This document shows positions 2,517 to 12,014 of a stretch of 22,698 nt of DNA, piece after piece. Source of the stretch: a virus. The notes under the pieces were generated by a model. That model saw only the letters and a program-made list of their open reading frames with translations, had not been told where the DNA came from and searched no databases. The stretch covers positions 1 through 22,698 of the IMG/VR virus record IMGVR_UViG_3300028925_008699. One strand, 5' to 3'. The position numbers were made by a program, and so were the translations under genes. Positions within the stretch are counted from its first letter, which is position 1. Every line of letters starts with the position of its first letter.

Positions 2517-3013
2517 AAAAACGCACCCGCACGGCAAAGGCTAAGACCAAGCGCGACATTGGCGTCGCCGACGGGCCGACATCTGAATGGCGACGGCACC
2601 ACGATGCGGTGGTCGAGGATCGCGACATCAAGGGAACGAAGGGAATTCGTGCATTATCACAGAATGCGTTCGACAGATATTACCGCCGCACCGAATTGGC
2701 GCCAGGCGACAAGACCCAAAATATGCGCCTCTACATGGCTGGCGAGCGCCTGCGGGGCGATTGGGAACGAGCCGGGCTGGACACACGCGCCAGGCAATCG
2801 TTTGAGCGCCAGCCTGCCGCCAGCGTCGAGGAGTTTTCTGCGGCCAAGATTGACGCATGGAACCGGGTGAGGCGGGCGATGGTGGCGCTGGGTCCAACGA
2901 GGAACGTGGTGGTTAATGCCGCGGTTTATGGTGATCGCGTCGGCAAGGCCAAAATTGAGATGCTGCGCGCTGGGCTGGACGCGCTGGCGGATATGTATTC
3001 AGGGCGAAAATAA
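2513..3013 (+). CDS. DUF6456-like protein
   Basis: A basic protein of about 166 residues of unknown function. The C-terminal half resembles DUF6456 of Alphaproteobacteria: the pattern AGERLRGDWERAG, then a DAWNRVRRAMVALGP helix, then EMLRAGLDALADMY. The N-terminus is Lys/Arg-rich (KKRTRTAKAKTKR), which suggests nucleic-acid contact. Two GTG codons are adjacent at 2510 and 2513. The second makes the four-base overlap GTGA with the preceding stop and has GAGG (2502-2505) seven bases upstream, so it is preferred. The overlap implies translational coupling with the gene before it. DUF6456 assignment is from pattern memory and needs a profile search. Confidence 0.72.
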   Translation: MKKRTRTAKAKTKRDIGVADGPTSEWRRHHDAVVEDRDIKGTKGIRALSQNAFDRYYRRTELAPGDKTQNMRLYMAGERLRGDWERAGLDTRARQSFERQPAASVEEFSAAKIDAWNRVRRAMVALGPTRNVVVNAAVYGDRVGKAKIEMLRAGLDALADMYSGRK

Positions 3014-3017
3014 CCGC

Positions 3018-3046
3018 TTGACACTAGGGAACCCTGCGGCTACCGT
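3018..3046 (+). promoter_or_regulatory. Candidate host-type promoter
   Basis: TTGACA at 3018-3023 matches the -35 consensus exactly. GCTACCGT at 3039-3046 shares GCTA with the Caulobacter-type -10 (GCTANAWC) at a 14-base spacing from TTGACAC, within the range known for that promoter class. Read as an E. coli -10, TACCGT gives only three matches at 17 bases. The spacer holds the inverted repeat AGGG-AA-CCCT (3026-3035), a possible operator. It lies just after the DUF6456-like gene and would drive the ArfA-like ORF and small terminase. Confidence 0.45.
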
Positions 3047-3090
3047 AATTGTCATATTCAATTGGCGCGTCAGCATCAGGCGACGAAGCC

Positions 3091-3222
3091 ATGAAAACAG
3101 CTAAAAATCTCAAAACAAATGGAAATCCTGTGGCCCGCGCGTTGCGGTCGCGGCATTTGCGTGCGCGTGTCGTGCGTAGTCGAAAGATTTATTCGAGGAA
3201 GGGGCGGGGTATTGATGCCTGA
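3091..3222 (+). CDS. ArfA-like small basic protein, candidate ribosome-rescue factor
   Basis: A 43-codon ORF. The core reads NPVARALRSRHLRARVV, then RSRKIYSRKGR. This follows the layout of ArfA (a short hydrophobic/Arg helix with A-L and R-x-R-V, then Lys/Arg, Y-x-RKG), the factor that brings RF2 to ribosomes stalled on mRNAs without a stop codon. E. coli ArfA has ALLHDPLFRQRVE and KGKGSYMRKG at matching places; here the KGKG part is shortened to RKI. It is almost 40% Lys/Arg. Its end overlaps the small-terminase start by eight bases (ATGCCTGA), and it follows the candidate promoter. The ribosome binding site is weak (AGG 3078-3080). Coding status is supported by the motif, not by length; a DNA- or RNA-binding role is the alternative. 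Confidence 0.55.
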   Translation: MKTAKNLKTNGNPVARALRSRHLRARVVRSRKIYSRKGRGIDA

Positions 3223-3763
3223 TTTGGGATTGAAAAAGCACGCTAATCAGCGCCTGACCGCCAAGCAAGAAGACTTTTGTCGTAAGTTCATGGAACTCAA
3301 GTCAGCGTCGGCAGCGTACCGGGCGGCGTATGACGCCGAGAACATGAAGCGGGAAACGGTGCATAGGCAGGCAACGGCGTTGCTGGATAACTGCAAGGTT
3401 GCCGCACGCCTCGACGAACTGCGCGCTCAAGTGACCAAGCACGTTGAAATCACGCTGGGCGAAGTGTCCGGCGCATTGCGCGAAGCACTGACAATGGCCC
3501 TGGAACGCGGGCAAACTGGCTCTGCCGTTGCCGCCGCGAATGGCCTGGCTAAGCTTGCGGGGCTCATCACAGACCGGCAGCGGATCGAGAACGTGGACGC
3601 CAACGAGGCGCACCTGGAGGCTCTGAGGGAGCTTGCAGCGGCCCCGGCAGCACCAGCCTCGCCGTCCCCAGCGCCTGCACCGACGGACCCGCTTCCAGAG
3701 CAGGCGGAAGCGCCACATGTATTTGACATAACGCCTAACTCTGACGACACCGTAAAGCATTGA
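3215..3763 (+). CDS. terS: Terminase small subunit
   Basis: A protein of 182 residues that would recognise phage DNA and hand it to the large terminase. The opening, LTAKQEDFCRKFMELKSASA followed by AYRAAY, is the helix-turn-helix signature of the Terminase_2 small-subunit family. The segment ETVHRQATALLDNCKVAARL continues the usual pattern, and EITLGEVSGALREAL starts the oligomerisation helices. The last 50 residues are Ala/Pro-rich and likely disordered. The frame is open to 3119, but ATG 3215 is preferred: GAGGAAGGGG lies upstream, family members start near this point, and it overlaps the ArfA-like ORF by eight bases, suggesting coupling. The large terminase follows after an unusually long gap of 405 bases. 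Confidence 0.85.
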   Translation: MPDLGLKKHANQRLTAKQEDFCRKFMELKSASAAYRAAYDAENMKRETVHRQATALLDNCKVAARLDELRAQVTKHVEITLGEVSGALREALTMALERGQTGSAVAAANGLAKLAGLITDRQRIENVDANEAHLEALRELAAAPAAPASPSPAPAPTDPLPEQAEAPHVFDITPNSDDTVKH

Positions 3764-4168: not shown

Positions 4169-5587
4169 ATGCCGGAATCTACCCGCGCCGCCACCAAAGC
4201 CATGTACGCCGATTTCACCGCGCGCTACAGAGACGATCCTGTAGGCTTCGCCCGCAACTGCCTCGCCCTGGATCCGCTGGAATGGCAGTGCGAGGTCATG
4301 CTGGCAGTCGCCACAGGCGAGCGCCGCCTTTCGGTACGCAGCGGCCATGGCGTCGGAAAATCGACCTGCGCGGCGGCCCTAATGCTCTGGTATCTTCTGA
4401 CCAGATACCCGTGCAAGGTGATTACCACGGCGCCCACCGCCAGCCAACTTTACGACGCCCTGTTCGCCGAATGCAAGAATTTGATGAAGCGCCTACCGCC
4501 ACCCATCTCCAAGCTACTCGAGGCAACCTCCGACCGCGTGGTCTTGAAATCGTCTCCGACGGAAGCATTTATATCCTGCCGCACCGCCAGCCGTGATCGC
4601 CCGGAAAGTCTTGCCGGCGTACATAGCCAGCATGTGCTGTTGGTTGCCGACGAGGCCAGCGGCATACCCGAAGAGGTCTTCGAGTCTGGCGCCGGATCGA
4701 TGTCAACGCACAACGCCACGACGCTGCTACTGGGCAACCCTGTACGCAACCGTGGCTTGTTTTACAGAACGCACCATGAATTAGCGGATAGCTGGAAAAC
4801 CTGGCGCATATCGTCGGCCGACAGCCCGCTTGTGGCGCCTGATTTTCTCACCGACATGGCGCAACGCTATGGCGAGGAGAGCAACGCCTACCGCGTCCGC
4901 GTACTTGGTGAATTCGCCATGGACGACGGCGAGAGCCTGATCCAGCCATCACTGGTTGAGGCGGCCATCGCCCGCGACGTTGACGTGGTCGAGACGGCCC
5001 CATTGGTTTACGGCGTGGACGTGGCGCGCCACGGCAGCGACAAATCGGCCCTGGTGAAGCGCCGCGGCAATGCCGTGGTCGGCATCAAGACCTGGCGGCA
5101 ACTAGATTTGATGCAGCTTGTGGGCGCCATCGTGCATGAACTTGAGCAGGAGGAAGACCATGTTGAGGAAATATTGGTGGACGCCATTGGACTGGGCGCA
5201 GGGGTTGCTGATCGCTTGCAGGAACTGGGTCACCCGGTTGTTTCGGTCAATGTATCTGAGAGTTCGGCGATGCATCCCACGGCTGTGCGCCTGCGGGACG
5301 AACTCTGGCTCCGGGCGAAAGAATGGCTAGAGGCCAAGGATTGCACCTTGCCGGACAACGAGACGCTGGCCAAGGAATTGGTTGCGCCGCGCTACACATT
5401 TACGAGCAGCGGAAAAATGAAAATTGAATCCAAAGATGAAATGAAAAGGCGTGGCATCTCCAGCCCTGACGTGGCCGACGCATTTTGCCTCACCTTTGCT
5501 GGCGTGGCAGCCATGGTCACCCGTGGCGCGATGTCGAAGCGTTGGAAGCAGGCTATTGATTATCCTTCGTCTGCTTGGATTGTTTGA
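4169..5587 (+). CDS. terL: Terminase large subunit
   Basis: The packaging motor: an ATPase that drives DNA into the prohead through the portal and a nuclease that cuts the concatemer. It has 472 residues, a normal length. Residues about 35-220 are the ATPase: EWQCEVM, Walker A SGHGVGKS at 58-65, HVLLVADEAS with Walker B D161-E162, and a coupling motif LLLGNP at 187-192. Residues about 278-445 are the RNase H-like nuclease, with VYGVDVARHG (D284), ILVDAIGLGAG (D338) and SPDVADAFCL (D434, D437) as probable metal ligands. Start ATG 4169 has TGGGGAT upstream. The stop overlaps the next start by one base (TGATG). It lies between small terminase and portal, the usual place. Confidence 0.95.
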   Translation: MPESTRAATKAMYADFTARYRDDPVGFARNCLALDPLEWQCEVMLAVATGERRLSVRSGHGVGKSTCAAALMLWYLLTRYPCKVITTAPTASQLYDALFAECKNLMKRLPPPISKLLEATSDRVVLKSSPTEAFISCRTASRDRPESLAGVHSQHVLLVADEASGIPEEVFESGAGSMSTHNATTLLLGNPVRNRGLFYRTHHELADSWKTWRISSADSPLVAPDFLTDMAQRYGEESNAYRVRVLGEFAMDDGESLIQPSLVEAAIARDVDVVETAPLVYGVDVARHGSDKSALVKRRGNAVVGIKTWRQLDLMQLVGAIVHELEQEEDHVEEILVDAIGLGAGVADRLQELGHPVVSVNVSESSAMHPTAVRLRDELWLRAKEWLEAKDCTLPDNETLAKELVAPRYTFTSSGKMKIESKDEMKRRGISSPDVADAFCLTFAGVAAMVTRGAMSKRWKQAIDYPSSAWIV

Positions 5588-7809
5588 TGGTTGGGTTGTT
5601 GGACGATCTATCCGCCGGCAAGTACCAGAAAGCTGCGCGCGGCCTGTTAGGACCAGCCTACGAACCGCTGGCGGCATTGCCAGGTCTGTTGGGCGAGTTC
5701 TCGATGGGCGCTGACGTTAGGGACTACCAAGCCTACGGCAGTGAAGCGATACAGAAGGCGCTGCGCGGCGACTACGGTCAAGCCGGTTTGGATGCGTTGT
5801 GGGCGGCAGCGGCGTTGGCCGGCACGGTGGTGCCGGGCCGTGCTTCCATGGCTGACCCGCGAAAATTGAAGAAAAAGGTTAAGAAAAAGGCGAAAGCGAA
5901 AAAGGTCAAGCGGATGACCGATTTGCCGAACATTCGGGAAATGCCGGTCGATGAAGCCATCGCAATCGCCAGAAAAGAGCCCCACCTGATACCCGGCGGC
6001 GCTGCGACCGAGGGGAAATATGTCGCCGGCCCCCGCAACATAGATACCAGACAGAAGCTGACCAAGATGAGGCGGGACTTGGACGCCAGCATCGATGCTG
6101 GCGCCGAGGGCGGCGATTGGTACAACCGCTATCGCGGCGGCGTCTATGATGTCACGGGCGGCAGTCCCGAACAGGCCGGAGCGATGGCCAGGATCGAAGG
6201 CATGTTTTCAGCGGGCGTCGATCCAGCATCAGAACTTGGCTACAGCATCAAGGAAACCAGCGGTCTAATTGGCGGCACCCCGGTGAAGGCTGCGCGCCCC
6301 GCCCAGCATGAGGCGCTTCTGAATGCCGCGGCGGCAAATGATATGTCCAAACTGATGCTAGGGCCGAAGACCGGCGAATATGCGAAAAGGGTGACGCCCG
6401 GCCTGTTGAGTCCCGGCGCAACCGGCGTCAACGATTTCCGGCACTTCAGAAACCTGGGCTACACCGACGCTGCCGGGAAGCCGGTTGATCAGGTCACTGG
6501 CACACCGCACATCTTTGCCGACTACGAAACCGCTCTGGCTGTGGATCGGGCGAACAAGCGAAAACTGGCTGGGCGCAGCGATTGGACCGGCGAACAGATA
6601 CAGGCTACGGCGTGGGTCAAGCAGAAGTCCGACGATCTGTATGCCCGTGGCAAGAAACGATATGACGCCCAGGCCCTGGAGCAAATGAAGAAGGACCGGG
6701 TCAACGACATCAGTCCTGAAGGGGTCGAGGAAGCCGGGCGCAAGTTGGCCTTTGGTGACGCCAACCGGACCATCGCGGATTTCTTTCCGAAGCATACCGC
6801 CTTTGACACTTATGAAATGCAGCCGGGGCCATCCACCGGGCATCTCCCCGCATCTGTGAACATGAACCAGGCCCAGCGAGACGCCCTGGCGGCAGACCCG
6901 CGTGGATCATTTGCGACAGCACCGGGCGGCCGCGATGCCGTCTATGCCGGCCTGCACGTTCCTACGGCGCCCGGCATCAGTATGCGCGTGCGCCCCACGA
7001 CACCCATGCAGGGCATCTACGATGGGGGGCAGGGGCTTGAATTAAACCAGGGCGCGGTTGCCCGTCCTTTGGTTGGCTACACCACCCACGGCGCCTCTCC
7101 GAAAACCTTGGCAACCGCTGACAGGGATATCTTGGAAGCGGGCACCGGATTGCGGGCTGGCTTGCTGGCCCAGGATGCGGGCGCCGCCCATGTTATCACC
7201 GACAGTGGCAGGATGAGCGACAGGAACGCGGTCGGCGCTGGCCTGCTGGGCAAACTGACGCCGCAAGAGGCCCTCGACCTCCGCGATGTCGGTGCCAAGT
7301 ACGGCTACGGCGATCTGGTGGATCGTGGCGAAGGCATCACCATGACCAATTTTGGCGGTGATCCCACGGTGCCGTCTACCAAAGAAATGGCCGCTCTTAC
7401 AGAAGAGGTCAGGGCAATCAGGCCCGACCTGACGACCGCCAAGCGGATGAGCCAGGACAGCGTCTATACCGATCTGACCGACGAATGGAAAGCCGGCGAA
7501 GGGTCCGGCGAGGTCACCAAGAAGATTTTGGGTTGGGTCGAGAAGACGCCAGAGTTGGCGGCGGCGATGGATAACAATCCTTACATCGCCCAGAACGCCC
7601 TCGACCTGATTGCCAGGGACAAAGGCCTTGCAAAAATTTGGGGACCGGGCCGCGCCGATCTGGAAACATTCAGATCGATCATCGGCGCCGGCCCCGGTTG
7701 GGTTGGAAGGTTAAAGAAAGCGGTCAAAAAAGGCATCGTGCCGGCCATAGCCGCAGCGGCTGTGTTCCAAAGGGTGTCTGTGGAATTTACCGAGGACGAC
7801 GCGTCATAG
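5587..7809 (+). CDS. Large probable virion-associated protein between terminase and portal
   Basis: A protein of 740 residues. ATG 5587 is preferred over the upstream TTG 5575 because it makes a TGATG junction with the terminase stop. The N-terminus (MVGLLDDLSAGKYQKAARGL, then ADVRDYQAYG and a hydrophobic Ala-rich helix ending VVPG) is of a type I associate with large, multi-domain phage proteins carried in virions. Residues about 92-109 are a Lys-rich linker, with 13 of 18 residues Lys or Arg. The middle has a GDWYNRYRGGVYDVTGG segment and a later stretch (HIFADYETALAVDRANKRKL, then QIQATAWVKQKSDDLYARG) resembling DUF7178-like modules. A short hydrophobic stretch lies near the C-terminus (VPAIAAAAVF). 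Injection with the genome is an inference; no catalytic residues were identified. Confidence 0.75.
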   Translation: MVGLLDDLSAGKYQKAARGLLGPAYEPLAALPGLLGEFSMGADVRDYQAYGSEAIQKALRGDYGQAGLDALWAAAALAGTVVPGRASMADPRKLKKKVKKKAKAKKVKRMTDLPNIREMPVDEAIAIARKEPHLIPGGAATEGKYVAGPRNIDTRQKLTKMRRDLDASIDAGAEGGDWYNRYRGGVYDVTGGSPEQAGAMARIEGMFSAGVDPASELGYSIKETSGLIGGTPVKAARPAQHEALLNAAAANDMSKLMLGPKTGEYAKRVTPGLLSPGATGVNDFRHFRNLGYTDAAGKPVDQVTGTPHIFADYETALAVDRANKRKLAGRSDWTGEQIQATAWVKQKSDDLYARGKKRYDAQALEQMKKDRVNDISPEGVEEAGRKLAFGDANRTIADFFPKHTAFDTYEMQPGPSTGHLPASVNMNQAQRDALAADPRGSFATAPGGRDAVYAGLHVPTAPGISMRVRPTTPMQGIYDGGQGLELNQGAVARPLVGYTTHGASPKTLATADRDILEAGTGLRAGLLAQDAGAAHVITDSGRMSDRNAVGAGLLGKLTPQEALDLRDVGAKYGYGDLVDRGEGITMTNFGGDPTVPSTKEMAALTEEVRAIRPDLTTAKRMSQDSVYTDLTDEWKAGEGSGEVTKKILGWVEKTPELAAAMDNNPYIAQNALDLIARDKGLAKIWGPGRADLETFRSIIGAGPGWVGRLKKAVKKGIVPAIAAAAVFQRVSVEFTEDDAS

Positions 7810-8092
7810 AAACCGGCGGCAACCCCAGCATCCGATCGGACCAAGCCTTGACCCAGGCCGGTTCATTGTCGGCCCAAAAGGGTACCTGCTTGTCGCCGTC
7901 ATAATAAAAGCCCAGCACGTTCTCTTCAGTGTGAGGCACTGGCTCGACGTGGGGCCAGTCCAGGCGGGCATCATACTGCCGCTCTGCTTCGCTCAGCGCC
8001 AACTGTTGTTCAGCGGTCAGCGCGTCCCTGTCGATGTACTCTTCTTCCGCCAATTGGAAAAAGTAGTGATCGACCATTTCGTTATAGGTCAT
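7787..8092 (-). CDS. Counter-transcribed small acidic protein of unknown function
   Basis: The only convincing minus-strand gene in the window: 101 residues, no recognised family. It reads MTYNEMVDHYFFQLAEEEYI, then TAEQQLALSEAERQYDARLD, then FYYDGDKQVPFWADNEPAWV, acidic and aromatic and protein-like. This start has GAGGGG about ten bases upstream, inside the inverted repeat GAGGG-GAA-CCCTC. The frame is open upstream to ATG 8179, giving 130 residues, but that start has no ribosome binding site and the extra codons have a lower third-position G+C. Its 3' end overlaps the large + strand gene tail to tail by 23 bases. The + strand here has no credible ORF. Its position suggests a moron-like cargo gene. 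Confidence 0.6.
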   Translation of the reverse strand: MTYNEMVDHYFFQLAEEEYIDRDALTAEQQLALSEAERQYDARLDWPHVEPVPHTEENVLGFYYDGDKQVPFWADNEPAWVKAWSDRMLGLPPVSMTRRPR

Positions 8093-8205
8093 TTTGAGGG
8101 TTCCCCTCTTTAGTGCTTTAGGCCCAATGCCACGGCGCACAAGCTGAAGATCAAATGCCGTAGGCCTTTTATACATCATGGGTCCGCGATAGGTAAGGTA
8201 AAAAT

Positions 8206-10254
8206 ATGCCAAAGCTAGACGACACAGAAATTCATCGCATCGTGCAGCATGAGATAGATGATGCCGTCCTCTATCAGGACGAGGAGCACACTGGCTTTCG
8301 CGACACTGCGACGAAATATTACTATGGCGAGAAATTCGGCAACGAGGTCGAGGGGCAGAGCCAGATAGTCAGTCGCGACGTGGCGGACACCGTCGGATTC
8401 GTTATGCCGTCCCTGATGAAGATATTTGCCAGCAGCAAGGATTTTGTCAGCTTCCAGCCGCGCCACCCCGAGGACGAAGACGCTGCCAAGCAGGCCAGCG
8501 AGTACGTCAACTGGATCGTCACGGATCAGAACCCCGGCTTTAAAATAATCCACAATTGGCTCCACGACGCGCTCGTCTTCCGCCTGGGCGTGGTTAAATT
8601 TTATTGGAAAGATCCTGAATTTGATACGCCGGAAAGCTACGAAGGTTTAACCGAAAATCAACTGGCGCTGTTGGTCAACGATCCCAAGGTCGAGGTCTTA
8701 GAGCAGGACGTTAGCTACCTAGACGCAGACGACGATGATCCAGAAGATGTCTATGGCGATATGGCCTCCGCTCTGCCGCCCACCTACTCTGTAAAAATCC
8801 GGCGCAAGTTGGAAAACGGGCAATGCATTTTGGAGAACGTGCCGCCTGAAGAATTCCTGTATTCGCGCCATGCCAAGTCGTTAGAGGATGCGGACTTCGT
8901 TGGCCACCGCCGCATGATGACGATCAGCGAACTGGTCAGCATGGGCTACGATAAAGACGTGATCGAGCGCTATGCCGGCGGCGAAGAGAGCGGCATGAGC
9001 GACGAGGTGACCACCCGCTTCCAAGACCTCTCCAGCAGCGGCGGCGATAGCACTATCGATGCATCACGCCGCGAGGTCGAGGTGATCGAGGCGTACATGA
9101 AGATCGACGATGGAACTGGCGTCAGTGAATTGCGCCGCTTTTTCTGCGTCGGAGCCGGGCGCGAGATACTCGAAGACGAGCCGTTCGACAGCCTGCCTTT
9201 CGCCGCATTAACGCCGCACCTGATACCCCACCGCCTGGTGGGTAGGTCGGTGACTGACGACACGCAAGACTTGCAATTGATCAAATCAACGGTGCTGCGC
9301 CAAATTATGGACGGCGCCTACCAATCCACTAATCCCCGTATAATGGCCGTAGAGGGCCAAGTCAACGTATCGGATCTAATGGAGAACCGCCCCGGCGGCA
9401 TCGTGCGCGTTCGCGCTCCTGGCATGGTGCAACCGCTGCCGGTGCAGCCGGTCTGGCAGTCCACGTTTCCGCTGCTTGAGTATCTTGACAATGTGCGAGA
9501 GGCGCGCACGGGCGTTTCCAAGGCATCAATGGGTTTAGACCCCGACTCGCTCCAGAGCAGCACGGCCACGGCCGTGGCGGCCACTGTCAGCGCGGCGCAA
9601 GGCAAGGTGGAACAGATCGCCCGTGTGTTTGCCGAGACAGGTTTCCGCGATTTATTTCGCGGCATCCTTCGCCTTGTCACGCACTATCAGGATGCGCCGC
9701 AGATCATCCGCTTGACGAATAATTTCGTGGAGATGGATCCGCGCGCCTGGGCGAACGGCTTCGATCTGATTGTCAACGTCGGCCTGGGCACCACGCAACA
9801 GGATCAGAAGCTGGCGCTGCTGGCGCAGATCGCCGGCAAGCAGGAGCAGATTTTACAGACCCTCGGGCCATCAAATCCTGTGGTCGGCATCAACCAGTAC
9901 GTCGGCACTCTTCGCAAGATGGTAGAGGCCGCCGGCTTCAAGGACGCTGGGCAATTCTTCACCGACGTACCAAAAGAGGTGGTGGATCAGATGGGTCAGC
10001 AGGGGCAAGAGCAACAGCCCGACCCGATGGCGCAAGCCGCCATGGCCCAGGTCGAGATTGCCAAGGCCAAGGCCGAGGCGGAAATCGCCATCAGGCGCGA
10101 GAAGATGCAGGCCGATATCCAGTTGGCCAGGGAAAAATTACAGATGGAAATGCAATTAAAGCAGGCCGAATTAGAGGGCGAAGCGAGGCTGCAAGGCATC
10201 AAGCTGGCCAACAAGATCGGCGAGCAAGGCACTAACATCAGGAGCGTTGTCTGA
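8206..10254 (+). CDS. Portal protein (P22/SU10-type)
   Basis: The dodecameric ring at the capsid vertex through which DNA enters and leaves. It has 682 residues, near the P22 portal length of 725. The N-terminal region has RDVADTVGFVMPSLMKIF, then FQPRHPEDEDAAKQASEYVN and a LHDALVFRLGVVKFYW helix, the order seen in SU10/P22-type portals. The central part includes DDTQDLQLIKSTVLRQIMDG and a SKASMGLDPDSLQSSTATAV segment. Residues from about 600 form a long charged coiled coil (EIAKAKAEAEIAIRREKMQA onward), probably the helical barrel. GGTAAGGT precedes ATG 8206. The stop overlaps the next start (TGATG). Confidence 0.9.
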   Translation: MPKLDDTEIHRIVQHEIDDAVLYQDEEHTGFRDTATKYYYGEKFGNEVEGQSQIVSRDVADTVGFVMPSLMKIFASSKDFVSFQPRHPEDEDAAKQASEYVNWIVTDQNPGFKIIHNWLHDALVFRLGVVKFYWKDPEFDTPESYEGLTENQLALLVNDPKVEVLEQDVSYLDADDDDPEDVYGDMASALPPTYSVKIRRKLENGQCILENVPPEEFLYSRHAKSLEDADFVGHRRMMTISELVSMGYDKDVIERYAGGEESGMSDEVTTRFQDLSSSGGDSTIDASRREVEVIEAYMKIDDGTGVSELRRFFCVGAGREILEDEPFDSLPFAALTPHLIPHRLVGRSVTDDTQDLQLIKSTVLRQIMDGAYQSTNPRIMAVEGQVNVSDLMENRPGGIVRVRAPGMVQPLPVQPVWQSTFPLLEYLDNVREARTGVSKASMGLDPDSLQSSTATAVAATVSAAQGKVEQIARVFAETGFRDLFRGILRLVTHYQDAPQIIRLTNNFVEMDPRAWANGFDLIVNVGLGTTQQDQKLALLAQIAGKQEQILQTLGPSNPVVGINQYVGTLRKMVEAAGFKDAGQFFTDVPKEVVDQMGQQGQEQQPDPMAQAAMAQVEIAKAKAEAEIAIRREKMQADIQLAREKLQMEMQLKQAELEGEARLQGIKLANKIGEQGTNIRSVV

Positions 10255-12014
10255 TGCCAATTCAGCCAATCGGCGGACAATCGTCAGGGGTATACGGCAC
10301 CGGCGTTGTCCGCGTCCCCAGCGGCGATGGCAGTTATACACTCGTTCCGCAGAGCATGCACGGCGACCCATCGTTATATGAAAACAGTATTTCAAAGACT
10401 GTCGCTGCCCCCGGCCAGACGTTTGCACCGAATTTGGGAACCTGGGCACCACCGACGCCCGAATATCTGACGGCGCCTGGCTATGAAACCTATGCGCCGA
10501 CCGCGGCTTATGGCTACTCGCCAACAGGCGGCGACTGGTCTGGTGCGTATCCAGGCTATGGTGGCGGTGGCGGTGGTGGCGGTTTGACCTCGGGCGACTT
10601 CGGCGGCGGCGCGGACAACAGTACACTTGGCGGCCTGCTGTCGGCTGCGAGCCTGCTGGGTGGCGCCAACGACCTGTCCAGTTTCTTGACGGGATCCAGC
10701 CTGCTTGAGCACGCTGGCATCCAGAACCCGTTCAGTGGCTTGCTTGGCGGCGGCGAGGGGCTGAACTTACAAGCCCTGAACCCGTACAGTAACACTCCCC
10801 TGACGGCGCTGTTTGGAGAAGCCGGTCGCAATCTTGGCCTCGCCCCGTCGGCATTCCCAAACGCACTCCCCGGCGGCGTGGGTGGTTCGGTAGGCATTGG
10901 GCCGTCTGGTTATCTATCGCCGGACGCACTGGCTGGTGTAAGCAACGCTGTCCCGCCAGGTTCGCCTAGCTTGCTGCCCTTCGATCCATCCGGCGGGATG
11001 GCGCTACCATCAGTGCCACCGCCTGGCGGCACGGCTCCATTAACCGACGTATTTGGTCCGTATGAATTGCCACGGCAAGCTGTTGATTTGAGTTTGCCTG
11101 CTGAGGCATGGAACCCGACAACTGGCGAATTTAATTTCGTTCAAGCGGGGGAGCCGGCTACTGGACAATTCACGACAGCAGCGGGGCTTTCTAATATACA
11201 GGGCGGCGCCGGATTGTCTACGGGATTGCCGTCCAGCGCAGCCGAAATCGCAGCGGGGCAAGCCGCTGAATTTGGCGCTGGCGGGTTCTTTGGCTCTGGT
11301 TCGGGGGGCGCAGCCCAATTAGGCACAGCATTGGCCAATGCTGGGCTCACCGCCGCAGCAGGCGCAATGCCGGGTCTGGCTGCGGGTATTCCATTCGCTG
11401 GCGTTGGCGCGCCAAGTTTATTCGGCGCGGGCACTGCCGCTGCCGGAACCGCCGCCGCAGGGGCAGGAGCAGGAGCAGGAGCAGGGCTAGGCTTGGCCGC
11501 GCTTGGCCCGGCAGCTATGATTGCTCTCCCGTTCCTCGCGCGGGCGCTGCTTGACAAACCAACTGACCCCACGATAAACGCGCGCCTAACCCATCAGCTT
11601 GAAGGCACTGCGCAGGCCAAGGGCATTAAGGGTCTGGAAGAAGCTATCTACGAGAACCCTAATCTGTACGACCTGGGACGAATAGCCACTTCCGGCAGAA
11701 CGGGGGGCCACGGACGAGTTCAGTTGGCACCCCCTGGAACGAAGCCCACAAACGGAGGCATCGCAGTAATACCTTGGTCTTCTGAGCTATCCGACCTGTT
11801 CAATAAAAACATAGATAGTTTACAAGCGGCCAGCAACGCGGGCCAGCAAGCAACCTCTGCCGGGCCGGATGACATTGACCCGAATAAATATCATCCGATT
11901 TACAAACCCGACCCAAACACATACAAAATGGTTGCGGGCGATTATGGCGTCATGGAACCCCGGTTGGTTGGGGGGCCAGCTTTCGACGCCTATATGGAGG
12001 ACGGACCCGGATGA
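10254..12014 (+). CDS. Gly/Ala-rich low-complexity phage protein
   Basis: A 586-residue protein of unknown function, coupled to the portal by TGATG. It is low in complexity: a run of eight glycines at 103-110 (10560-10583), a long Gly/Ala/Ser/Leu/Pro-rich middle, and an (Ala-Gly)4 run coded by four near-perfect hexamers GCAGGA (11463-11486). That run leads into a hydrophobic stretch of about 25 residues (LGLAALGPAAMIALPFLARA), the only membrane-like segment. The C-terminal 150 residues are more ordinary and may be the folded part. Composition resembles internal virion or ejection proteins, but its place between portal and scaffold also fits a structural or assembly role. Confidence 0.7.
   Translation: MPIQPIGGQSSGVYGTGVVRVPSGDGSYTLVPQSMHGDPSLYENSISKTVAAPGQTFAPNLGTWAPPTPEYLTAPGYETYAPTAAYGYSPTGGDWSGAYPGYGGGGGGGGLTSGDFGGGADNSTLGGLLSAASLLGGANDLSSFLTGSSLLEHAGIQNPFSGLLGGGEGLNLQALNPYSNTPLTALFGEAGRNLGLAPSAFPNALPGGVGGSVGIGPSGYLSPDALAGVSNAVPPGSPSLLPFDPSGGMALPSVPPPGGTAPLTDVFGPYELPRQAVDLSLPAEAWNPTTGEFNFVQAGEPATGQFTTAAGLSNIQGGAGLSTGLPSSAAEIAAGQAAEFGAGGFFGSGSGGAAQLGTALANAGLTAAAGAMPGLAAGIPFAGVGAPSLFGAGTAAAGTAAAGAGAGAGAGLGLAALGPAAMIALPFLARALLDKPTDPTINARLTHQLEGTAQAKGIKGLEEAIYENPNLYDLGRIATSGRTGGHGRVQLAPPGTKPTNGGIAVIPWSSELSDLFNKNIDSLQAASNAGQQATSAGPDDIDPNKYHPIYKPDPNTYKMVAGDYGVMEPRLVGGPAFDAYMEDGPG
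11463..11486 (+). repeat. GCAGGA hexamer repeat (4 units)
   Basis: Three copies of GCAGGA followed by GCAGGG, in frame, coding for alternating Ala and Gly just before the hydrophobic segment of the surrounding gene. Being a multiple of three, unit gain or loss would change linker length without a frameshift. Confidence 0.8.

Follow-up and report, generated by a model that had tools for sequence, protein, structure and literature searches.

A probable SAM-V-type riboswitch ahead of a small antisense gene beside the portal gene of a viral contig

SAM-V, a riboswitch for S-adenosylmethionine (SAM) for which Poiata 2009 is reportedly the original paper, is the closest known relative of the RNA element considered here. 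In Pelagibacter, sulfur limitation raises the expression of genes that follow a SAM-V leader, as far as the accessible text of one study goes (PMC5069961), and, in the accessible part of another, SAM binding completes a triplex that occludes the Shine-Dalgarno sequence (PMC6061858). We describe the leader of a small minus-strand gene in the IMG/VR viral contig IMGVR_UViG_3300028925_008699, the whole 22,698-base stretch of which is called the window below. With the SAM-V RNAs of Rfam family RF01826, known from the Pelagibacter metY, bhmT and mmuM leaders and compared through the accessible portions of their descriptions (PMC2704228, PMC5069961, PMC6061858), this leader shares an H-type pseudoknot of helices P1, P2 and P3, the motifs GCAUUUG and GCACUAA, and a 3′ Shine-Dalgarno sequence. 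It differs from the Pelagibacter leaders in lying in a phage, before a small uncharacterised gene and not a methionine gene, and from RF01826 in having C for A before UUGUGC and in scoring below the Rfam cut-off. The minus-strand feature is likely to be a module of promoter, SAM-V-type riboswitch and small gene, in which an accessory gene with its own promoter would be translated on a fall in SAM.

Phages are reported to carry riboswitches only rarely (PMC9004378). In the accessible parts of the literature, Melnitz-like phages carry a glutamine type (PMC9004378), cyanophages carry manA and wcaG RNAs (PMC2864571), T4-like cyanophages carry a glutamine riboswitch and other RNAs (PMC9964418), and one survey of pelagimyophages reports no riboswitches (PMC7029224). 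The glutamine riboswitches of Melnitz and Mosig are, like the leader in the window, metabolite riboswitches borne by phages, but they have another ligand, are another RNA and are associated with ssrA (tmRNA) in the consulted part of that report (PMC9004378). The Pelagibacter SAM-V papers PMC2704228 and PMC5069961 do not mention phage in their accessible text, and no SAM-type phage leader was found in the partly accessible literature on phage riboswitches, in which subscription journals are thinly covered and earlier sightings are possible. A second SAM sensor, SAM-II (SAM_alpha, RF00521), has the same ligand and a similar pseudoknot.

On the minus strand of the window, an open reading frame (ORF) has its stop end at 7787 and is open back to an ATG at 8179, giving 130 codons between a plus-strand gene for a 744-residue protein, here p744, and the portal gene (Table 1). 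A sequence-only reading had taken the whole interval 7787-8179 to be a single counter-transcribed gene. Evidence that a gene is present came from three sources. Only its frame has codon usage like that of this phage's genes, at 0.164 bits per codon, with the remaining five between -0.13 and -0.41; when the region was shuffled 2000 times with its dinucleotides kept, an ATG ORF of at least 130 codons appeared on one strand or the other in 14 shuffles; and comparison with a homologue in a Rhodospirillaceae metagenome-assembled genome (MAG; locus L102) gives a nonsynonymous divergence (dN) of 0.083 and a synonymous divergence (dS) of 0.21. The gene is therefore real but shorter than first read. 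The stop end and the open frame stand, while the proposed start does not: translation most likely begins at ATG 8092 and yields 101 amino acids (aa), and 8093-8179, the first 29 codons of the earlier reading, is a stretch of promoter spacer, SAM-V-type aptamer and ribosome-binding site.

The position of the start was informed by the leaders of relatives. The MAG leader matches that of the window at 86 of 89 nucleotides (nt) (97%), has its frame broken by a 1-nt indel, and lies before the first of three small genes. The homologue of the window gene, which shares 85% aa identity with it over 96 residues, comes second of the three; across the gene itself, DNA identity is 91%. In phage relatives, the distance from aptamer to ATG is 11-15 nt and does not vary in multiples of three. 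A coding start at ATG 8179 was rejected on the indel, the variable spacing and the aptamer itself. It is extremely unlikely that the whole 130-codon ORF is the protein and the SAM-V likeness a chance match within coding sequence. That reading can draw on the open frame from 8179 to 7787 and on several relatives that are also open through the aptamer, from GTG. It conflicts with the indel and the different gene behind the MAG leader, with a leader more alike than the gene, with the spacing, with paired changes in P1 and P3, and with the position of ATG 8179 upstream of the predicted -10 box.

Evidence for the riboswitch came initially from Rfam, where RF01826 (SAM_V) matches the window leader at 32.8 bits (E 0.0027 for 801 nt x 4227 families; E 0.00067 for the same match searched in a 201-nt stretch). 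The conserved bases of the SAM site are present (AUUUG in the third strand, UUGUGC and CACUAAA), and a ribosome-binding site adjoins the aptamer 3′ end as in SAM-V (GAGGGG 8103-8108, ATG 8092). Additional evidence came from an alignment of 37 leaders, 34 of them distinct, in which the UUU of the third strand and CACUAAAG are invariant across all 37. Over the 34, the P1/P2 pseudoknot and P3 form standard pairs in 94.7% of cases (88.2% in shuffled alignments), and the covariation score is 0.167, against 0.050 shuffled, with none of 500 shuffles as high; the best slid version of the structure reached 55.9% and 0.068. One P1 column pair (14/41) is CG in 15 leaders, GC in 10, AU in 6, GU in 1 and unpaired in 2; two of the three P3 pairs vary on both sides, with GC, CG and AU all seen, and P1 and P3 each hold two pairs changed on both sides. 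A model built from 28 leaders without the window and its MAG copy (R3), which do include the leader of L114 with a core 97% identical over 59 nt, recovers the window leader at 82.5 bits (E 1e-16) and matches nothing else in the window; these 28 are 94.0% paired, with covariation of 0.178 against 0.051 shuffled. Leader sequence and covariation thus support a SAM-V-type riboswitch, from which we infer SAM binding and switching.

Several observations weigh against this interpretation. The curated RF01826 cut-off of 41 bits, which is a search threshold and not a structural feature, is reached neither by the window (32.8) nor by the MAG leader (26.6), and Rfam at its gathering threshold gives no match in the window. 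The leader is therefore labelled SAM-V-type, a variant; two aligned bacterial relatives do exceed the cut-off (L126, 43.0 bits; L124, 41.5 bits). Two of the five measures of pairing and covariation do not rise above shuffles: pairs changed on both sides are near the shuffle level (4 against 2.5, with 40 of 500 shuffles as high), as are further pair types (9 against 8.3; 216 of 500). P2 is invariant in the 34 leaders and hence uninformative on covariation, pairing fails at the outer P1 position (13/42) in 19 of them, and the plain leader fold is not unusually stable by a method without pseudoknots (z -0.94). In the minimum-energy fold, the GAGGGG element also supplies the 5′ strand of a hairpin, GAGGG-GAA-CCCTC (8096-8108); this 5-bp hairpin over the ribosome site occurs in both the window and the MAG leader and could hold the site shut regardless of ligand. 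The promoter score of the window is no better than chance alone (shuffle p 0.18). In 100 portal-selected loci, of which 16 hold less than 300 nt upstream of the portal, riboswitch model R1 found the window's twin and nothing in the other 99, so the switch is rare even within this group of phages. Lastly, the 101-aa protein has no match in Pfam, PHROG or PADLOC, the last of which holds defence and not anti-defence families.

The predicted TATAAA box stops 8 nt upstream of the aptamer's GG, although a simple promoter scan of the window did not list this promoter. Across 13 phage leaders scanned for -10 boxes, some of them near-copies, the best -10-like box lies 7-10 nt before the aptamer in nine and at 5, 18, 18 and 22 nt in the others. 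Transcription probably starts at the aptamer 5′ end, at about 8161, in which case ATG 8179 would fall outside the RNA.

Table 1. Features of the minus-strand module and its neighbours, in window coordinates.
Feature	Position	Strand	Basis or detail
Predicted promoter	8168..8196	-	-35 TTACCT 8196-8191, 17-nt spacer, -10 TATAAA 8173-8168
SAM-V-type aptamer	8100..8169	-	Rfam RF01826; held-out model R3; covariation
Aptamer P1	8161-8158/8135-8132	-	part of the aptamer
Aptamer third strand GCAUUUG	8158-8152	-	part of the aptamer
Aptamer P2	8142-8137/8116-8110	-	part of the aptamer
Aptamer P3	8131-8129/8123-8121	-	part of the aptamer
Shine-Dalgarno-like GAGGGG	8103..8108	-	sequence; at aptamer 3′ end
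Minus-strand gene, corrected	7787..8092	-	101 aa, MTYNEMVDHYFF...; codon usage, homologues, dN/dS
p744, convergent partner, 744 aa, related to DUF7178	5575..7809	+	Pfam match in homologues
Portal, SU10 type, divergent neighbour	8206..10254	+	PF23899 SU10_portal E 1.2e-210; phrog_1216 E 7.7e-163

Evidence that the arrangement recurs in phages came from a pattern for the RNA only, blind to protein and position, which found SAM-V leaders in 19 viral contigs. Near-copies among them, judged on both leader and gene (L130/L145/L147, L131/L136, L133/L146, L137/L143, L129/L134 and L139/L144), reduce the set to about 12 groups. Downstream of 18 of the 19 leaders, a small ORF starts after 11-15 nt, though for two of these the sequence ends before the ORF does. 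The remaining contig, L135, has the leader before metK, a SAM synthetase gene recognised by eye, and may represent either a phage-borne metK or host DNA. In 16 of the 19, the gene or gene pair led by the riboswitch converges on the 3′ end of a p744 homologue from the antisense strand; the sequences of L142 and L144 end before the site, L135 lacks p744, and the p744 of L137 was recognised via its twin L143. In L132, L133 and L146 the p744 end is reached by the second of the genes that follow the riboswitch and not by the first. As their next recognised virion gene, L131, L133, L136, L137, L141, L142, L143 and L146 have the portal, L130, L132, L145 and L147 the scaffold, and L140 the terminase.

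The sequence-only reading had proposed a search for homologues at the same site in other phages, and such homologues exist: the near-identical contigs L130, L145 and L147 encode, antisense beside p744, a protein of 67 aa homologous to the window protein's C-terminal half (45% over 56 aligned positions). Outside the strain, homologues of the window protein were found only there and in the MAG, all of them behind the riboswitch, with one gene between in the MAG; the first of the three MAG genes has a homologue in L140 (41% over 59). A second riboswitch pattern gave two matches, of which L149 is a convincing leader and L148 likely due to chance. Among 50,697 phage and 72,556 plasmid records, no homologue of the window protein was found at E up to 1 and no riboswitch DNA at E up to 0.1.

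Bacterial relatives bear on where the module came from. A pattern-based scan across 84,980 species of bacteria and archaea, each represented by a single genome, found no homologue besides that in the MAG, and 13 of 385 alphaproteobacterial genomes match the leader sequence. A SAM-I/IV riboswitch is also present in seven of the 15 bacterial loci retrieved (L116-L119 and L125-L127), and in four (L117, L125, L126 and L127) it lies directly beside SAM-V. In L125-L127, which come from 1.4-Mb genomes, the tandem precedes 220-225 aa proteins that look outer-membrane-like by eye. Other bacterial SAM-V leaders precede small or uncharacterised genes, with integrase-like ORFs nearby in L118 and L121 (by eye), a relative of the window's primase/helicase near the leader in L114, and tRNA genes near those in L115, L119 and L121. 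This suggests that the leaders in L114, L115, L118, L119 and L121 lie in integrated mobile elements.

One explanation for these relatives is that the riboswitch is a relic, brought in with a captured host gene and now irrelevant to the phage. The nearest homologue does lie among host genes in the Rhodospirillaceae MAG, similar leaders occur in the 13 alphaproteobacterial genomes, and the window leader has an extra hairpin over its ribosome site. A relic, however, would not account for the recurrence of SAM-V leaders at one antisense site in about ten distinct groups of phages, with diverse genes behind them, for SAM-II-like leaders at that site, or for the invariance of the third-strand UUU and CACUAAAG. 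The proximity of some bacterial copies to phage-type primase, integrase ORFs or tRNA genes also means that the flow may be from phage to host. We regard the relic explanation as unlikely.

The antisense site was surveyed in p744 loci, the best 80 of 117 and not dereplicated (L154-L233). Model R1 matched 17 times across the 536,600 bases of these loci, with 10 strong matches and 7 weak ones (E 1e-4 to 0.3). Each match lies on the minus strand, at most 380 nt past the p744 stop; the strong matches are contigs from the 19-contig set plus the window's twin, L154. Two of the weak matches were scored by Rfam as SAM-II, just below its cut-off of 36 (L227, 35.3 bits; L215, 33.1). A SAM-II-like model, R2, was made from seven p744-locus leaders, five of them R1 matches or their copies and two (L165 and L218) picked by eye; the leaders of L162-L164 were found by R2 itself. 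With R1 and R2 together, 22 of the 80 loci have SAM-V or SAM-II-like leaders, all at the same site and on the same strand. Rfam at the gathering threshold matched none of 18 p744 loci that lack an R1 match, including the R2 matches L162 and L218. The window leader itself is of the SAM-V type, unlike SAM-II: R2 gives it only 19.5 bits, and in the window and 89 other loci R2 matched only this leader (E 0.093).

An antisense gene at the end of p744 is more widespread than the riboswitch. The earlier claim that the minus-strand transcript would cross the 3′ end of the preceding gene is upheld by a 23-nt overlap (7787-7809), and an antisense ORF at this place is widely conserved. An ATG ORF crosses the p744 stop in 54 of 57 dereplicated ends and in 24 of 104 other gene ends from the same loci (Fisher p 4e-20), and 51 of the 54 lie in one relative frame, compared with 10, 9 and 5 among the 24 controls; control ends often have less free space behind them, so the better contrast is the preference for one frame, 51 of 54 as against 10 of 24. 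For this count, 74 of the 80 loci were entered, omitting L170, L180, L198, L199, L205 and L212, whose matches ran to the edge of the locus or close to it; removal of ends that lacked a stop or 300 nt of sequence after it, and of ends 85% alike in the stop region, then left 57. The overlaps have many lengths and nearly always the same relative frame. A common family of antisense proteins at p744 ends bears the motif HEPPYTEEEE and has no Rfam match in the loci tested; membership of the window protein in it is unsupported (hhalign probability 0.24%).

The frequency of these crossings and their single relative frame are consistent with the antisense transcript being the main product, pairing with p744 mRNA to regulate it, with the small protein secondary. 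Yet the protein is under purifying selection (dN 0.083, dS 0.21), recognisable protein families occur among the antisense genes, the overlap is only 23 nt here, and translation-type riboswitches act on the start of a protein. A regulatory transcript as the main product is, in our judgement, quite unlikely.

A further proposal gives p744 itself a SAM-lyase-like domain that lowers SAM and so switches on the antisense gene, making the pair a two-gene infection timer. Phage SAM lyases combine a ferredoxin-like domain and a catalytic Glu. In structural comparison by VIA, residues 393-640 of the p744 model resemble the phage SAM lyase 6zm9 (Z 6.5, root-mean-square deviation (rmsd) 4.7, 125 of 129 residues), and the model also resembles 6znb (Z 6.4, rmsd 3.9, 120 of 125 residues). 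Interpretation of these matches is confounded by efflux-pump matches that score equally or higher, up to Z 6.8, and by VIA's own warning that Z below 8 may reflect just a common arrangement. Moreover, the Foldseek E for 6znb is 4.1, the predicted local distance difference test (pLDDT) of the p744 model is 62.5, and no counterpart could be placed in p744 for Glu69, the catalytic residue of phage SAM lyase in the accessible part of its description (PMC7877911). Such a timer is very unlikely. Pfam DUF7178 is found in two of nine aligned p744 homologues and not in the window's own copy.

Phage morons are extra genes on the opposite strand with their own promoter, carried in exchangeable cassettes. 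The window gene resembles them in its strand, its own predicted promoter and its cassette; unlike morons, it is led by a metabolite-sensing RNA and its position is tied to one partner gene. In relatives with 87-91% identical portals, DNA homology is lost at 5601 (L005 and L012) or 5855 (L006-L011 and L014) and resumes at 8184 or 8194, which places p744 and the minus-strand gene in an exchangeable segment. As expected for a moron, the gene is absent at the same place in the close relatives L005 and L012, where a different plus-strand gene fills the space to 24 and 22 nt before the portal. The sequence-only reading had named a plus-strand gene in this space as grounds for refutation; its presence in at least two near relatives shows that the module is variable. 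The same reading's proposal of a moron-like, separately expressed gene agrees with the exchangeable segment and the predicted promoter, but it foresaw neither the riboswitch nor the wrong N-terminus.

The terminase-portal gap (5601-8184) is hypervariable, with unrelated large genes in relatives. We take that of L016 to be ADP-ribosyltransferase-like and that of L005, with an EEIQSDWHQ motif, to be polyvalent-protein-like, both by eye. L006-L011 lack SAM-V and have another short minus-strand ORF, such as L011:5691-5879 (-), with 62 aa from TTG and a 4-nt overlap with the variable gene. The 99% identical contig L003 has 93 differences from the window over the shared stretch, almost all in 3000-3500, 5250-5750 and near 11,750, a clustering that suggests local recombination; with zero differences across 5601-10254, within-strain selection is not measurable there.

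The 101-aa protein is acidic (isoelectric point (pI) 4.5, charge -11), and its only NCBIfam match is at chance level (E 0.044; 12.8 bits, where the cut-off is 444). Its structural model has a pLDDT of 74.9 and a predicted template modelling score (pTM) of 0.43; a fold search with it found no Protein Data Bank match at E 0.001, the best by VIA having Z 5.4 over N-terminal helices. Eleven proteins behind other phage riboswitches have pI values from 4.7 to 10.5, a spread that makes a shared DNA-mimic role unlikely. The sequence-only reading had suggested host takeover, exclusion or anti-defence; family and fold searches gave nothing that directly supports these roles. The small size, diversity and turnover of these genes would fit host interaction, and a part in takeover or counter-defence is a tentative assignment, with somewhat less than an even chance of being right.

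To the coding frame, the riboswitch sequence and covariation, and the conserved site observed here, published work on other SAM-V RNAs would add control of translation by an OFF switch. In the promoter-riboswitch-gene module favoured here, RNA polymerase would start on the minus strand at about 8161, the aptamer 5′ end. With SAM plentiful, the SAM-bound pseudoknot and triplex would hide the ribosome site 8103-8108, and no 101-aa protein would be made; with SAM falling, in a sulfur-starved host or through an infection that drains the pool, the site would open and the protein would be made. The module would be an accessory cassette that converges on the variable p744 gene, antisense to its 3′ end.

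As a caution for annotation, extending such ORFs back to the first ATG swallows the riboswitch. SAM is a methyl-donor pool also central to restriction-modification and to T3-type SAM lyases. A broader model, speculative and with the balance of probability clearly against it, is that a lineage of phages of (probably) alphaproteobacteria gauges the state of infection or host by host SAM: riboswitches of SAM-V or SAM-II type would keep a p744-linked, one-frame antisense gene off until a drop in SAM, possibly caused by p744 or another phage product, and promoter, riboswitch and small genes would travel together, as one cassette, among phages and integrated elements. The finding raises the question of what purpose is served by a small protein that needs to stay off at high SAM. 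The recurrence of SAM-sensing types at one antisense site, SAM-V together with SAM-II-like, suggests that these phages gauge the methionine/SAM state of their host.

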